Of a stretch of 56,931 nt of DNA, positions 15,130-31,124 are shown in pieces. Location: contig JACPBS010000015.1 in the NCBI GenBank assembly GCA_016180195.1, positions 1 to 56,931 of the forward strand, read 5' to 3'. This DNA comes from Candidatus Woesearchaeota archaeon (GTDB lineage: Archaea > Nanobdellota > Nanobdellia > Woesearchaeales > UBA10216). How positions within the stretch are numbered: the stretch's first letter is position 1; every line of letters begins with the position of its first letter. A model generated the notes under the pieces. It worked only from the letters and a program-made list of their open reading frames with translations. It was not told the DNA's origin and did not search any database. Made by a program: the position numbers and the translations under genes.

Positions 15130-16932
15130 TCAGTATTTGCTCTTCAACTGCATTTTCGGGTATATACCCATGCTTTTGAACTCATCAAGCATTAGCTTGA
15201 ATGCATAGCTTATCTCGATGAAGCTGATCTCCACGGATTCCCCGCATATTGGGCAGTAATTCTTTTTTTTGAACTCGTCATGTATTGCGATGATGCCGCA
15301 GTTTTCGCATAGCGGCACTACGGTCCTGTCTGAGTCAAATCTTTCCTTCAGCAGCAGCGATGCGCCATGCGCGACAAAAGTGTCCTTTTCCATCTCTCCA
15401 AGCCTCAGGCCGCCTTCCTTTGCTCTTCCTTCTGTGGGCTGTCTTGTGAGCAGCTGTATCGGGCCTCTTGCCCTTGAGTGTATCTTGTTGGCAACCATGT
15501 GCTTAAGTCTGAGGTAGTACATGTTGCCGACAAATATCCTGACCGTGAATTTTTCTCCTGTTTCACCGTTGTACATTGTTTCCAGCCCATTGTCCCTGAA
15601 GCCGAGGCCCAGAAGCTCTTTCCTAAGCGCTTCCTCTGGCTCTGAATCAAAGATTGTTCCATTGATGTACCTTCCTGATAGCCCTCCTGTCTTTCCTGCC
15701 AGGAGCTCGATAAGGTGTGCCATGGTCATCCTGCTTGGGATTCCGTGTGGGCTGAAAAGCAGGTCCGGCACTATTCCTGAGATGGTAAATGGCATGTCTG
15801 TATGTGGCACTATCAGGCCTATGACTCCTTTTTGCCCATGCCTTGAAGTAAGCTTGTCGCCTATTTCAGGTATTCTCTCGTCTCTGATCTTTACCTGCAC
15901 CAGCTTGTTGCCTTCACCGTTTTCTGTGATCAGTATCAGGTCAACGATTCCCTCTTCGCCGTGCTTCATTATCAGTGAGCTTTCCCTTCTTGTGTCGCTT
16001 GCGAGCCTGTATTGGTCCATTCCGCTGAGGAATCTTGGAGGTGATGTTTTGCCTATCACGACATCGCCTTCTTTTACCTTGGCTTCAGGGTATATTATTC
16101 CGTCTTCCTCAAGATACCTGTAATCTTTTTCGCTCTTGTAGCCCTTTACGTCCTTGTCGGGTATGGATATCTCGTCCACGAGGCCCCCGCTGTATCTGAG
16201 TTCTTCAGCGACCATTGGCCTGAAGTAAGTTCCTCTTCCAAGTCCTCGCTCGATTGACGCCTTGTTTATTATTATGGCATCTTCCATGTTGTACCCCTTG
16301 TAGCTCATGACCGCAACCACCACATTCTGTCCTGAGGGGTGCTGGTCATATTCGCTTATGTCGTGCATAACAGATTTTACAACTGGTTTCTGGGGGTAAT
16401 GCAGCACGTTGACATCCATGTCCATTCTTATGTGGTAGTTGGATGCGTAAAAGCCAAGTGCCTGTTTCTGGTTTTTCGACCCGGTGTTTACTTTCTGTGC
16501 CGAGTTAAAGTTTGCATATGGCACCAGCGCTGTCACGAGGCCAAATATTGCGAGCGGCGTGATTTCTAGGTGCGTGTGCTTGGGTGTCAGTTCGCTTTCG
16601 AAGAATGCAATGAGTGTGTTATCTTCCTCGGATGCATCGAGGTATTCGATTATTCCCTGCTTTACAAGGTCAGACCATCTGGCCTCCTTCTTCTCAAGCT
16701 GCTTTATGTGTTGATCTGTGAGGGTTGGCTTTCCATCCTTGACAACGATAAGCGGCCTCCTTAGCCTTCCCCTTGCAGCTTCTATGAAGACCTCGTTTGA
16801 TTCATGATTGTGATTTATGTTTACATTATCAGGGATTATGCCTTTTCTTCTTTCTTCGCGTACCCTTGAAATGAATTCTGATGGACTGTCTGTTGTTCCG
16901 ATGTATTTTCCGCTTAAATATACGTCCGCCAT
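15130..16932 (-). CDS. rpoB1: DNA-directed RNA polymerase subunit B'
   Basis: Protein of 600 aa, the C-terminal part of the second largest subunit. MSYKGYNMEDAIIIN and GDKLTSRHGQKGVIG are the catalytic and hybrid-binding motifs. CENCGIIA ... CPICGES forms the C-terminal zinc site. The B subunit is split into B'' and B', as in many Euryarchaeota and unlike most Crenarchaeota. It starts 2 bases after rpoB2. Confidence 0.97.
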   Translation of the reverse strand: MADVYLSGKYIGTTDSPSEFISRVREERRKGIIPDNVNINHNHESNEVFIEAARGRLRRPLIVVKDGKPTLTDQHIKQLEKKEARWSDLVKQGIIEYLDASEEDNTLIAFFESELTPKHTHLEITPLAIFGLVTALVPYANFNSAQKVNTGSKNQKQALGFYASNYHIRMDMDVNVLHYPQKPVVKSVMHDISEYDQHPSGQNVVVAVMSYKGYNMEDAIIINKASIERGLGRGTYFRPMVAEELRYSGGLVDEISIPDKDVKGYKSEKDYRYLEEDGIIYPEAKVKEGDVVIGKTSPPRFLSGMDQYRLASDTRRESSLIMKHGEEGIVDLILITENGEGNKLVQVKIRDERIPEIGDKLTSRHGQKGVIGLIVPHTDMPFTISGIVPDLLFSPHGIPSRMTMAHLIELLAGKTGGLSGRYINGTIFDSEPEEALRKELLGLGFRDNGLETMYNGETGEKFTVRIFVGNMYYLRLKHMVANKIHSRARGPIQLLTRQPTEGRAKEGGLRLGEMEKDTFVAHGASLLLKERFDSDRTVVPLCENCGIIAIHDEFKKKNYCPICGESVEISFIEISYAFKLMLDEFKSMGIYPKMQLKSKY

Positions 16933-16934
16933 TT

Positions 16935-18419
16935 TTACCTCACCGGTTTTAGCCCATAGGCCCTGAGTGTTTTGATAAGATCCTCTTCTGATGTGTCCTG
17001 GGATACGGTTGCAAGGAGGGCCAAGTTCTTCTTCAGGCCTATGTTCGTGCCTTCAGGTGTTTCTATGGGGCATAGCCTACCTAGATGTGTGCAGTGTAGC
17101 TCCCTTGCTTCGAAATTCTCCTGTGTGGCTGACAGTGGGCTTACCACCCTTTGGAGATGGGACATGGTTTCAAGGTAGTTCAGCCTCTGGATTCTTTGGC
17201 TGATTCCTTTCCTGCCCCCGCTCCAGGAGCCTGTTGCCATTGAACTGTATATTCTTGATGTCAGCAGCTTTTCCCTGATTATGACTTTTATTGTCGGGAA
17301 TTTTCCCCTTTTCACTATCCTTTGGAAATTGTAAAGGAGGTCTCCGATGAGTACCTTCATGTTGACCCTTATGAGGTCCGCAAGAAGGTCTCCGCTCAGC
17401 TTCAGCCTTTTGTTCGAGTAGTTGTCTTTGTCGTCAAGCTCGATCTCTCCTTTAATGGTCATTATCAGTTTCTTTAGGCACTTGCAAAGGTTGTATGCCT
17501 TCACTATCCTGTCCTTTGGAGATGTTCCAAGGTGCGGAAGAAGGTACTTGTCCAGGATTTCCTTCATTCTCTCTACACGGACTTCTTTGGATTGTGTTAT
17601 GCCTGCCCTCTTGGCAATATAATCAATTGCATCCTCCTCATTCTTTATTTCAGCTGCTTCGAGGAGGTTTACTACTATTTCGTCAAAGTCCCTGTCTGCG
17701 GAAATGAAGCGCATGATATCCTCGTCTTTTGTGAGGCCGAGCGCTTTTATTGCGACTATCACGGGTATCCGCTTCACTCTTGTAAACGTTATGTAGAAAA
17801 TCCCATCTCTCAGCCTTTCAAGCGAATGGGGTATCTTGTACGATCCATATTCAGAGAAAATCTTGCCAACGTACTTGCTTGGGCCGGTTACATCGACATC
17901 TGTTATGAATTTGTTTGGGGCAAGGTCCTCGACCTTTACAAGCACTTTCTCAGTGCCGTTGATTATGAAATATCCTCCAGGGTCTTCCGGGTCCTCGCCC
18001 TGCTGCACGAGCTCTTCCTTTGTCAGCTTGTGCAAATGGCATTGCTTGGACTTGAGCATGATAGGCAGGTTTCCTATCTGGGTTTCAAAGGATTCCCTTT
18101 GGGCGCCATTGATGAATGCACTTACGGTTATGTATATTGGGGCAGAATAGGTGATCTTTCTCAGCCGTGCCTCTATCGGGTATATCTTCCTCCTGCTTCC
18201 GTCAGCTTCGGTAAGCTCAGGTTTTGTAACCCTTATTTTGTCAAACTTTATCTTGAACTCCTCCACGTTAGGGGGTATTATTGTAGGCTCTATGTCGCTG
18301 TTCTCGGCGATTATTTTTGGAAGCTCCTGGTCAATGAAGCTGTTGAAGGACTCAATGTCCGACTTGTTGAAGGATTGCTCGTCAAAGTATTTTCTTATCA
18401 GCATTTCATAGTTAACCAT
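16935..18419 (-). CDS. rpoB2: DNA-directed RNA polymerase subunit B''
   Basis: Protein of 494 aa, the N-terminal half of the B subunit with protrusion, lobe and fork domains. The fork region is seen near the end as REARELHCTHLGRLCPIETPEG-like sequence (ARELHCTHLGRLCPIETPEG). It overlaps rpoH by 8 bases at its start and is followed directly by rpoB1. Together H, B'' and B' assemble with A' and A'' encoded downstream. Confidence 0.97.
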   Translation of the reverse strand: MVNYEMLIRKYFDEQSFNKSDIESFNSFIDQELPKIIAENSDIEPTIIPPNVEEFKIKFDKIRVTKPELTEADGSRRKIYPIEARLRKITYSAPIYITVSAFINGAQRESFETQIGNLPIMLKSKQCHLHKLTKEELVQQGEDPEDPGGYFIINGTEKVLVKVEDLAPNKFITDVDVTGPSKYVGKIFSEYGSYKIPHSLERLRDGIFYITFTRVKRIPVIVAIKALGLTKDEDIMRFISADRDFDEIVVNLLEAAEIKNEEDAIDYIAKRAGITQSKEVRVERMKEILDKYLLPHLGTSPKDRIVKAYNLCKCLKKLIMTIKGEIELDDKDNYSNKRLKLSGDLLADLIRVNMKVLIGDLLYNFQRIVKRGKFPTIKVIIREKLLTSRIYSSMATGSWSGGRKGISQRIQRLNYLETMSHLQRVVSPLSATQENFEARELHCTHLGRLCPIETPEGTNIGLKKNLALLATVSQDTSEEDLIKTLRAYGLKPVR

Positions 18420-18654
18420 TCACAACCACCCTGTAGAACACGGATTTTCCTGAAGTGGGGCTGTTTCTTATTATCTTTATAACATCCCCTGTCTTTGCCG
18501 CTGCGCTTAGTGCCATCGGGTCGCTTTTGAGTATCTTTGGCAATTCCGAAGTTGTAATATTATACTTCCGCAGCAGATCTTCTTTTTCTTTTTCGCTTAG
18601 CTTTTGGTGTTTTGGAACGAATATGTGCTTCTTTATGTCTATCTTCTTATTCAT
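18412..18654 (-). CDS. rpoH: DNA-directed RNA polymerase subunit H (Rpb5-like)
   Basis: Protein of 80 aa from ATG 18654; a GTG at 18666 would add four residues. It matches the C-terminal assembly domain of eukaryotic Rpb5, which is the whole of archaeal H: HIFVPKHQKLSEKE, KYNITTSELPKI, DPMALSAAAKTGDVI and the end PTSGKSVFYRVV. It is the first protein gene of the operon and begins only 20 bases after the 3' end of tRNA-Lys, so tRNA and mRNA may share a primary transcript. Confidence 0.95.
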   Translation of the reverse strand: MNKKIDIKKHIFVPKHQKLSEKEKEDLLRKYNITTSELPKILKSDPMALSAAAKTGDVIKIIRNSPTSGKSVFYRVVVNG

Positions 18655-18673
18655 GAAATCCCTCACTTTATAA

Positions 18674-18823
18674 TGGGCCGGACGGGAGTTTCGCCCAAGA
18701 AGCTAAACAATTTCAGCTTCTATTTTCGAACCCGTGACCGTCTGCTTAAAAGGCAGACGCGCTATTGCCCCTTTATTGCAGGCAGCTTTTGCTTGCATTG
18801 TTTCCAGGCTGCGCTACCGGCCC
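18674..18823 (-). tRNA. tRNA-Lys (UUU) with introns in the D loop and T loop
   Basis: The minus strand folds into a complete 74-nt tRNA once two introns are removed. Acceptor GGGCCGG / CCGGCCC, discriminator A, anticodon loop CTTTTAA. Exons: 18823-18804, 18764-18725 and 18687-18674. Intron 1 (39 nt, 18803-18765) interrupts the D loop after AGCCTGG. Intron 2 (37 nt, 18724-18688) interrupts the T loop between positions 59 and 60. Both junctions fit bulge-helix-bulge geometry: central helices GCCT/GGGC and TTCG/CGAA, each flanked by 3-nt bulges. Splicing restores D loop AGCCTGGTA and T loop TTCGAAT exactly. The anticodon loop itself has no intron. Confidence 0.93.
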
Positions 18824-18834
18824 ATGAGCATAAG

Positions 18835-18953
18835 CGCCCTGGCCGGGACTTTCAGCAGCCCGTGAATGGGCTTTTTTGAACCCGGGTCGCAGCCGTTCTG
18901 CCTACCTATTCGCTGACAGGGCTGCATGATAGGCCGGACTACACTACCAGGGC
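18835..18953 (-). tRNA. tRNA-Asp (GUC) with introns in the anticodon loop and T loop
   Basis: A 75-nt tRNA after removal of two introns. Acceptor GCCCTGG / CCAGGGC, discriminator G. Exons: 18953-18914, 18895-18875 and 18848-18835. Intron 1 (18 nt, 18913-18896) is at the usual 37/38 position after CTGTCA; its central helix is CTGT/GCAG with bulges CAG and AAC. Intron 2 (26 nt, 18874-18849) is at 59/60; its central helix is TTCA/TGAA with bulges AAA and AGT. Spliced loops are CTGTCAC and TTCAAAT. It lies 11 bases upstream of tRNA-Lys in the same direction. Confidence 0.93.
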
Positions 18954-20806: not shown

Positions 20807-20934
20807 TCCCCGCGGCCGGATTTGAACCGGCAACCTCCCGGGAACGGCTGGCTAATGCTTCATGAACAGCCGGCAAGGCTTATTTCCGCTTAGCAAATCT
20901 ACAGCCGAGCGCTCTGCCGTTGAGCTACGCGGGG
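20807..20934 (-). tRNA. tRNA-Tyr (GUA) with a long anticodon-loop intron
   Basis: Acceptor CCCCGCG / CGCGGGG with discriminator A; the C1-G72 pair is the archaeal tRNA-Tyr identity element. D arm GCTC..GAGC, T arm GCCGG-TTCAAAT-CCGGC. Anticodon stem 5' strand CTCGG is followed by CTGTAG (anticodon GTA). The pairing 3' strand is CCGGG (one G-U pair), placing an intron of about 56 nt between positions 37 and 38. Intron ends are not certain: the expected central helix CTGT with GCCG has one mismatch. The intron's 3' part can form CGGCTG / CAGCCG, which competes with the exon sequence CGGCTG. Confidence 0.85.
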
Positions 20935-31029: not shown

Positions 31030-31124
31030 TGGGACCGCCCGGATTTGAACCGGGGTTGCTACCACCCCAAGGTAGAGTGATAGTTTGCTCCCTCTTGGTG
31101 AGGTCCAAGCTACACTACGGCCCC
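31030..31124 (-). tRNA. tRNA-Pro (GGG) with a D-loop intron
   Basis: A 73-nt tRNA after one 22-nt intron is removed. Acceptor GGGGCCG / CGGTCCC (one G-U), discriminator A, anticodon arm CTACC-TTGGGGT-GGTAG, T arm CCCGG-TTCAAAT-CCGGG. Exons 31124-31105 and 31082-31030; intron 31104-31083 in the D loop after AGCTTGG. The junction fits a central helix GCTT/GAGC with an inner helix CCTC/GAGG. Splicing gives D loop AGCTTGGTA. The T-run after the 3' end is part of the repeat boundary. Confidence 0.88.

Follow-up and report, generated by a model that had tools for sequence, protein, structure and literature searches.

Two doubly interrupted tRNA genes precede rpoH

The window, by which we mean the whole 56,931-nucleotide stretch of DNA that was analyzed, carries on its minus strand a tRNA-Asp(GTC) gene (18835..18953, 119 nt), then a tRNA-Lys(TTT) gene (18674..18823, 150 nt) and, a few nucleotides further on, the gene for RNA polymerase subunit H (rpoH, 18412..18666, minus strand), which serves below as a synteny anchor. 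Our reading of the surrounding sequence places the two parts of a split RNA polymerase B subunit on the same strand, B'' at 16935..18419 and B' at 15130..16932. Only about 7 nt separate the end of the tRNA-Lys gene from a possible GTG start codon of rpoH (18666-18674), and trimming of the tRNA-Lys 3' end from a common transcript would be expected to yield a nearly leaderless rpoH polymerase mRNA.

Neither tRNA gene is reported by ARAGORN when run without introns or by Rfam, and in each case a standard cloverleaf whose anticodon matches the tRNA identity is restored only by removing two introns. For tRNA-Asp, the first of these (18896..18913, minus strand, 18 nt) lies at position 37/38 and has the central helix CUGU:GCAG with the bulges CA/G and AA/C. 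The second (18849..18874, minus strand, 26 nt) interrupts the T-loop at 59/60, and here the T-stem is combined with a central helix UUCA:UGAA and a 3' bulge AG/U. When the 26-nt intron is taken out, a tRNA with the 18-nt intron at 37/38 is obtained, in which the anticodon GTC was read by hand. The spliced product, 75 nt in length, is GCCCTGGTAGTGTAGTCCGGCCTATCATGCAGCCCTGTCA/CGGCTGCGACCCGGGTTCAAA/TCCCGGCCAGGGCG, where the slashes mark the 37/38 and 59/60 introns. For tRNA-Lys, an exhaustive splice search guided by the bulge-helix-bulge (BHB) motif and scored with ARAGORN gave its top score, 129.8, to introns of 39 and 37 nt, with the runner-up at 118.0. The 39-nt intron (18765..18803, minus strand) resides in the D-loop at 19/20, with the central helix GCCU:GGGC, the bulges GG/A and AA/U, and an exon-side helix that is interrupted by A14/A21. 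The 37-nt intron (18688..18724, minus strand) is again at 59/60 in the T-loop, with the T-stem, a central helix UUCG:CGAA and a 3' bulge AC/U. The 74-nt spliced product is GGGCCGGTAGCGCAGCCTGG/TAGCGCGTCTGCCTTTTAAGCAGACGGTCACGGGTTCGAA/TCCCGTCCGGCCCA, the slashes marking the 19/20 and 59/60 introns. All exons are collinear within 119 nt (Asp) and 150 nt (Lys), which rules out permuted or split tRNA genes.

These solutions bear out much of an earlier note on this DNA, which had proposed two introns per gene and T-loop introns of a common design whose removal restores TTCGAAT or TTCAAAT; the first tRNA-Lys intron it had described is likewise real, but its position is corrected here to 19/20. A second, intact copy of Lys-TTT or Asp-GTC, which the same note had named as evidence to the contrary, was not found in this 97.5%-complete genome. 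The proposed 3-nt bulges hold in part. In minimum-energy folds of both T-loop introns, the T-stem and the central helix form and the 3' splice site lies in a clean 3-nt bulge. At the 5' splice site, however, the bulge merges into an internal loop (4 nt versus 2 for Asp, and 5 nt versus 4 for Lys), and the motifs must therefore be classed as relaxed.

T-loop introns are conserved across Woesearchaeales

With rpoH as the anchor we assembled 26 loci, comprising the window's own, 15 more that share its family and 10 from outside that family but within the order, and one more locus (L141) was added through the intron model described below, for a total of 27. Syntenic genes were recognized by matching their T-stem and acceptor exons, with no helix required. 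An insert at 59/60 is present in 22 of the 24 tRNA-Asp genes and in 21 of the 23 tRNA-Lys genes. These 43 inserts fall exactly at 59/60 and range from 13 to 94 nt, and their sequences and lengths are mostly dissimilar. The gene order Asp-Lys-rpoH is kept across families, so the adjacency to the split-B polymerase operon that the earlier note had called notable reflects lineage and synteny. The T-loop introns of tRNA-Asp and tRNA-Lys are probably ancestral in Woesearchaeales, or else the site has been reused again and again.

The predicted central helix, in which T54-R57 pairs with YGAA near the 3' end of the intron, is complete in 37 of the 43 introns at the expected register and in 0-2 of the 43 at any other. 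R57 and its partner covary (A-T in 24 introns, G-C in 12, G-T in two and unpaired in five), and this association gives a Fisher p value of 3e-8 if relatedness is ignored. Among 30 distinct 24-nt junctions, 95.8% of the cells are paired and 10 cells carry changes in both partners, and slid registers exhibit no double changes. The covariation score exceeds that of all 500 of 500 shuffles, although relatedness inflates such statistics. Both-sided variation is confined to one of the four central pairs, and the R57-Y pair is absent in five of the 43 introns. The TTCR/YGAA helix put forward from the window alone is thus upheld by compensatory changes at R57-Y and by the specificity of the register.

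A strict check of the full motif (hBHBh') gave a more mixed result. The 3' bulge is regular, both window genes are relaxed, and only seven of the 43 syntenic introns form an intron-side helix with at least three pairs in the strict register. The shortest introns, at 13 nt, offer little or no space for such a helix.

Taken alone, the pattern GTTCRAAN{8,38}YGAANNYC is no commoner in the genome than in a reversed control (28 matches in each). By itself it thus proves nothing, and it is useful only in combination with T-stem and acceptor filters. What speaks against chance is the agreement of T-stem and acceptor together with the recurrence of the introns in other genomes, and the comparative part of this evidence is the strong one. 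Several bare-pattern matches proved to belong to a dispersed repeat and not to tRNA. This element of about 100 nt (TTACAAATAAATTTCGCCTTGGGTTCAAAGCCCCGCCCTTTAGGGCGAAA...) contains nested palindromes, mimics the T-loop intron pattern, and is located on contigs C3, C5, C12 (three copies), C16, C21 (two copies) and C25, for example at L105, L118 and L127. None was found within the window.

Interrupted tRNA genes elsewhere in the genome and group

An inventory of tRNA genes was compiled from searches with Rfam, with the pattern and with a covariance model (R1) derived from ten T-arms, and from selected stretches; it is incomplete, with Phe, Trp, Asn and others among the tRNAs not located. The T-loop is interrupted at 59/60 in at least 13 tRNA genes, namely Lys-TTT, Asp, Ala-CGC, Arg-CCT, Arg-GCG, Leu-TAG, Ile-GAT, Ser (on C5), Ser-GCT, Pro-TGG, Val-CAC, Met and His. 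In Lys-CTT an intron of 34 nt occupies position 53/54, D-loop introns are present in Val-TAC, Pro-GGG, Leu-TAA and Met, and anticodon-loop introns in Gln, Tyr, Thr-CGT, Ser-CGA, Arg-GCG, Pro-TGG, Ser-GCT and His. The Ser gene on C5 and two Leu genes have further introns with approximate limits. Overall, about 23 of the approximately 32 tRNA genes located are interrupted and nine are intact, which is near the level of 0.84 introns per tRNA gene given for Thermoproteales (PMC8450103).

Two more of these genes lie in the window. tRNA-Pro(GGG) (31030..31124, minus strand) has a 20-nt D-loop intron at 19/20, the same place as in tRNA-Lys, and in tRNA-Tyr(GTA) (20807..20934, minus strand) some 56 nt interrupt the anticodon loop as an intron. 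In several relatives a tRNA-Tyr near rpoH contains an intron of similar size.

The T-loop introns of Ala and Ser have sequence in common beyond the junction, and this likeness suggests that introns may have been copied between tRNAs, as Fujishima 2010 proposed for Thermoproteales according to its citation in PMC4090602.

Beyond this genome, the R1 model detects T-loop introns in at least 68 of the 145 genomes sampled from the order, in at least 63 of 157 genomes in the phylum, and in at least four genomes of the same class outside the order. These counts are lower bounds, since genomes such as G034, G001, G002, G009 and G011 scored zero and yet have the introns at the rpoH locus.

A single α-type EndA gene

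The genome contains an RtcB gene and one gene for the splicing endonuclease EndA (PF01974), which encodes 177 aa. A PF01974 search carried to E <= 10 gave one additional weak match, on contig C25, which is spurious and lies inside a transketolase-like ORF. EndA matches are present in 135 of the 145 genomes of the order, nearly all with exactly one; five genomes have two, and in two of these five the matches are contig-end fragments. A gene for a second, structural subunit was not found with PF01974 in this genome or in most of the matching genomes of the order. The closest relative of the host's EndA, at 86% identity, is from Candidatus Woesearchaeota.

Several features mark this protein as a probable α4-type enzyme. 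It is the product of a single gene of about 180 codons, has both N- and C-terminal domains, and carries the catalytic Tyr, His and Lys residues, with Y113, H123 and K154 invariant in 32 relatives. An AlphaFold2 model (mean pLDDT 89.3) has as its nearest solved structure the α4 enzyme of M. jannaschii (1a79, TM 0.89/0.92), and the best PDB match by sequence is the catalytic subunit NEQ205 (3iey_A). The crenarchaeal specificity loop (CSL), an insert of about 10 residues in 3p1z_B and 2cv8_A (A. pernix and S. tokodaii), is absent from EndA and its aligned relatives, and the N. equitans chain likewise lacks this region. An ε2-type enzyme, with three fused units totaling about 390 aa and an ASL loop, is ruled out by the 177-aa ORF. 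The broad-specificity splicing endonuclease that the earlier note had predicted would still be required for function, yet the gene architecture does not support it and shows none of the known signs of such an enzyme: there is one α-type gene of about 177 aa, with no second subunit found and no CSL or ASL loop.

A C-terminal motif RW(L/V/I)RP in L016 and in the EndA relatives has Trp where M. jannaschii has Tyr. Trp is also found at this place in the catalytic chains of A. pernix, S. tokodaii and N. equitans. It might take part in stacking of the bulge bases, perhaps as the Trp of the published Arg/Trp pair.

How the introns might be removed

The subunit type of EndA and the diversity of tRNA introns are held to co-evolve, such that α4 and α2 enzymes accompany canonical introns and loop-bearing (αβ)2 and ε2 enzymes accompany scattered ones. 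Woesearchaeales look like an order-wide exception to this rule, because their introns look like members of the relaxed class and their enzyme looks like the narrow type. Cleavage by α4 and α2 enzymes is reported for canonical BHBs only (PMC4033280), and efficient removal of relaxed motifs only for (αβ)2 and ε2 enzymes, although the α'2 enzyme of A. fulgidus, when given a full-length pre-tRNA, is able to cleave at a BHL intron in position 37/38 (PMC6379350).

We consider it likely that the interrupted genes are functional archaeal tRNA genes with introns of the EndA-processed, bulge-helix-bulge family, and that their RNA would be spliced following cleavage by the single EndA. At 59/60, the outer helix would be supplied by the T-stem of the tRNA itself, and the central 4-bp helix by pairing between T54-R57 and YGAA. 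Cuts after nucleotide 59 and before nucleotide 60, followed by ligation by RtcB, would then restore the T-loop. All cuts, including those in relaxed motifs, would be made by one EndA, which is probably a homotetramer.

The mismatch between enzyme and substrates may be read in three ways: the α4 enzyme is intrinsically broad, a partner has escaped detection, or the published rule allows more than its wording suggests. Among these we favor, with moderate confidence, an intrinsically broad α4 enzyme. In its full form, which we advance tentatively, a whole DPANN order would process relaxed, non-canonical T-loop introns by means of a homotetrameric α4 EndA without CSL or ASL, thereby gaining broad specificity without either a split of subunits or a loop insertion, the routes that the co-evolution rule demands. 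The rarity of the strict intron-side helix counts against removal by the single EndA, given that published rules lead one to expect poor handling of such introns by a plain α4 enzyme (PMC6379350, PMC4033280).

The next best explanation, though an unlikely one, is that EndA is an ordinary narrow α4 enzyme and that the introns, once the pre-tRNA has folded, amount to canonical BHBs, so that only their position is unusual and the specificity rule stands. Consistent with this are the regularity of the T-stem, of the 4-bp helix and of the 3' bulge of 3 nt, the His, near-strict Ala, Ser, Ile and Pro introns, which fold as BHBs with 3-nt bulges, and the closeness of the fold to that of M. jannaschii. 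Introns of 13-16 nt (for example acgagtgtgaaag), with little or no space for an intron-side helix, and the internal loops of the window's Asp and Lys introns argue against it.

More doubtful still is a missed partner, whereby EndA would really be (αβ)2 and a strongly diverged, unrecognized structural subunit would confer broad specificity, as in Nanoarchaeum equitans (NEQ205 and NEQ261). The sequence of the woesearchaeal EndA is near that of NEQ205, many motifs are relaxed, and short β subunits exist, that of Pyrobaculum having 96 aa (PMC6379350). Against this, the permissive PF01974 search yielded one true gene, most genomes of the order have a single copy, and plain phmmer from the woesearchaeal EndA finds NEQ261 at 2e-14, so an NEQ261-like β subunit would have been seen. 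Finally, that the interrupted genes are decaying or unspliced pseudogenes is highly improbable even though standard tRNA finders miss both, because no other Lys-TTT or Asp-GTC gene was found and the exons are conserved over many families while the inserts vary freely and the helix changes in a compensatory manner.

Relation to known introns

Both the site 59/60 (PMC4090602) and tRNAs with multiple introns, known from several lineages (PMC4033280), have precedents, and we found no specific report of tRNA introns in Woesearchaeota in the open-licence literature. The introns thus belong to a known kind; the novelty lies in finding T-loop introns conserved throughout an order that has an α-type EndA.

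The comparison with Thermoproteales drawn by the earlier note holds as a likeness and fails as a lineage, the host being a member of Candidatus Woesearchaeota (DPANN). According to Sugahara 2008 and Fujishima 2010, as they are cited in PMC4090602 and PMC8450103, the non-canonical BHB introns of Thermoproteales also occur several to a tRNA, at sites that include 53/54 and 59/60, and sequence is probably shared between tRNAs, as for Ala and Ser here. Thermoproteales differ in having an (αβ)2 EndA with the crenarchaeal loop, and in the present case the one site 59/60 dominates, conserved in two tRNAs across an order.

The permuted tRNAs of Thermofilum pendens and Cyanidioschyzon merolae (PMC3218864) are also joined at 59/60 through a BHB made with the T-stem. 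In those genes, however, the 3' half lies upstream of the 5' half, whereas the exons here are collinear and separated by an ordinary intron. N. equitans, whose NEQ205 our EndA resembles, and the nanoarchaeon Nst1 (PMC3655853) belong to the same broad DPANN group as the host. Nst1 has a tRNA-Tyr intron and no identified β subunit, both as here; just two intron-containing tRNAs are reported for Nst1, and so a conflict with enzyme type did not arise. ARMAN-2 is likewise an ultrasmall archaeon with non-canonical introns, but its EndA is an ε2 protein of about 390 aa with three units and the ASL loop (PMC12397907), neither of which is seen here.

For tests of the co-evolution rule, Woesearchaeales offer many natural substrates, with introns as short as 13 nt, and a small enzyme encoded by a single gene. 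Moreover, because ARAGORN and Rfam miss these essential tRNAs, tRNA counts and tRNA-based completeness estimates for a large group of uncultured archaea may be too low.

Repeated 5' ends of tRNA genes

For six tRNA genes (Pro-GGG, Cys, Ser-TGA, Glu-CTC, Ser-CGA and Arg-GCG), and perhaps for Ser on C5, the first 12-24 nt of the gene recur in one or two copies located 48-137 nt upstream. One example lies in the window (31172-31030, minus strand), and others are at L007, L010, L011, L173 and L197. For Arg-GCG, the repeat comprises 19 nt plus 41 nt of leader. Hairpin-rich sequence separates the tRNA genes from these upstream copies, an arrangement that looks as if insertions or duplications had occurred repeatedly where tRNA genes begin.
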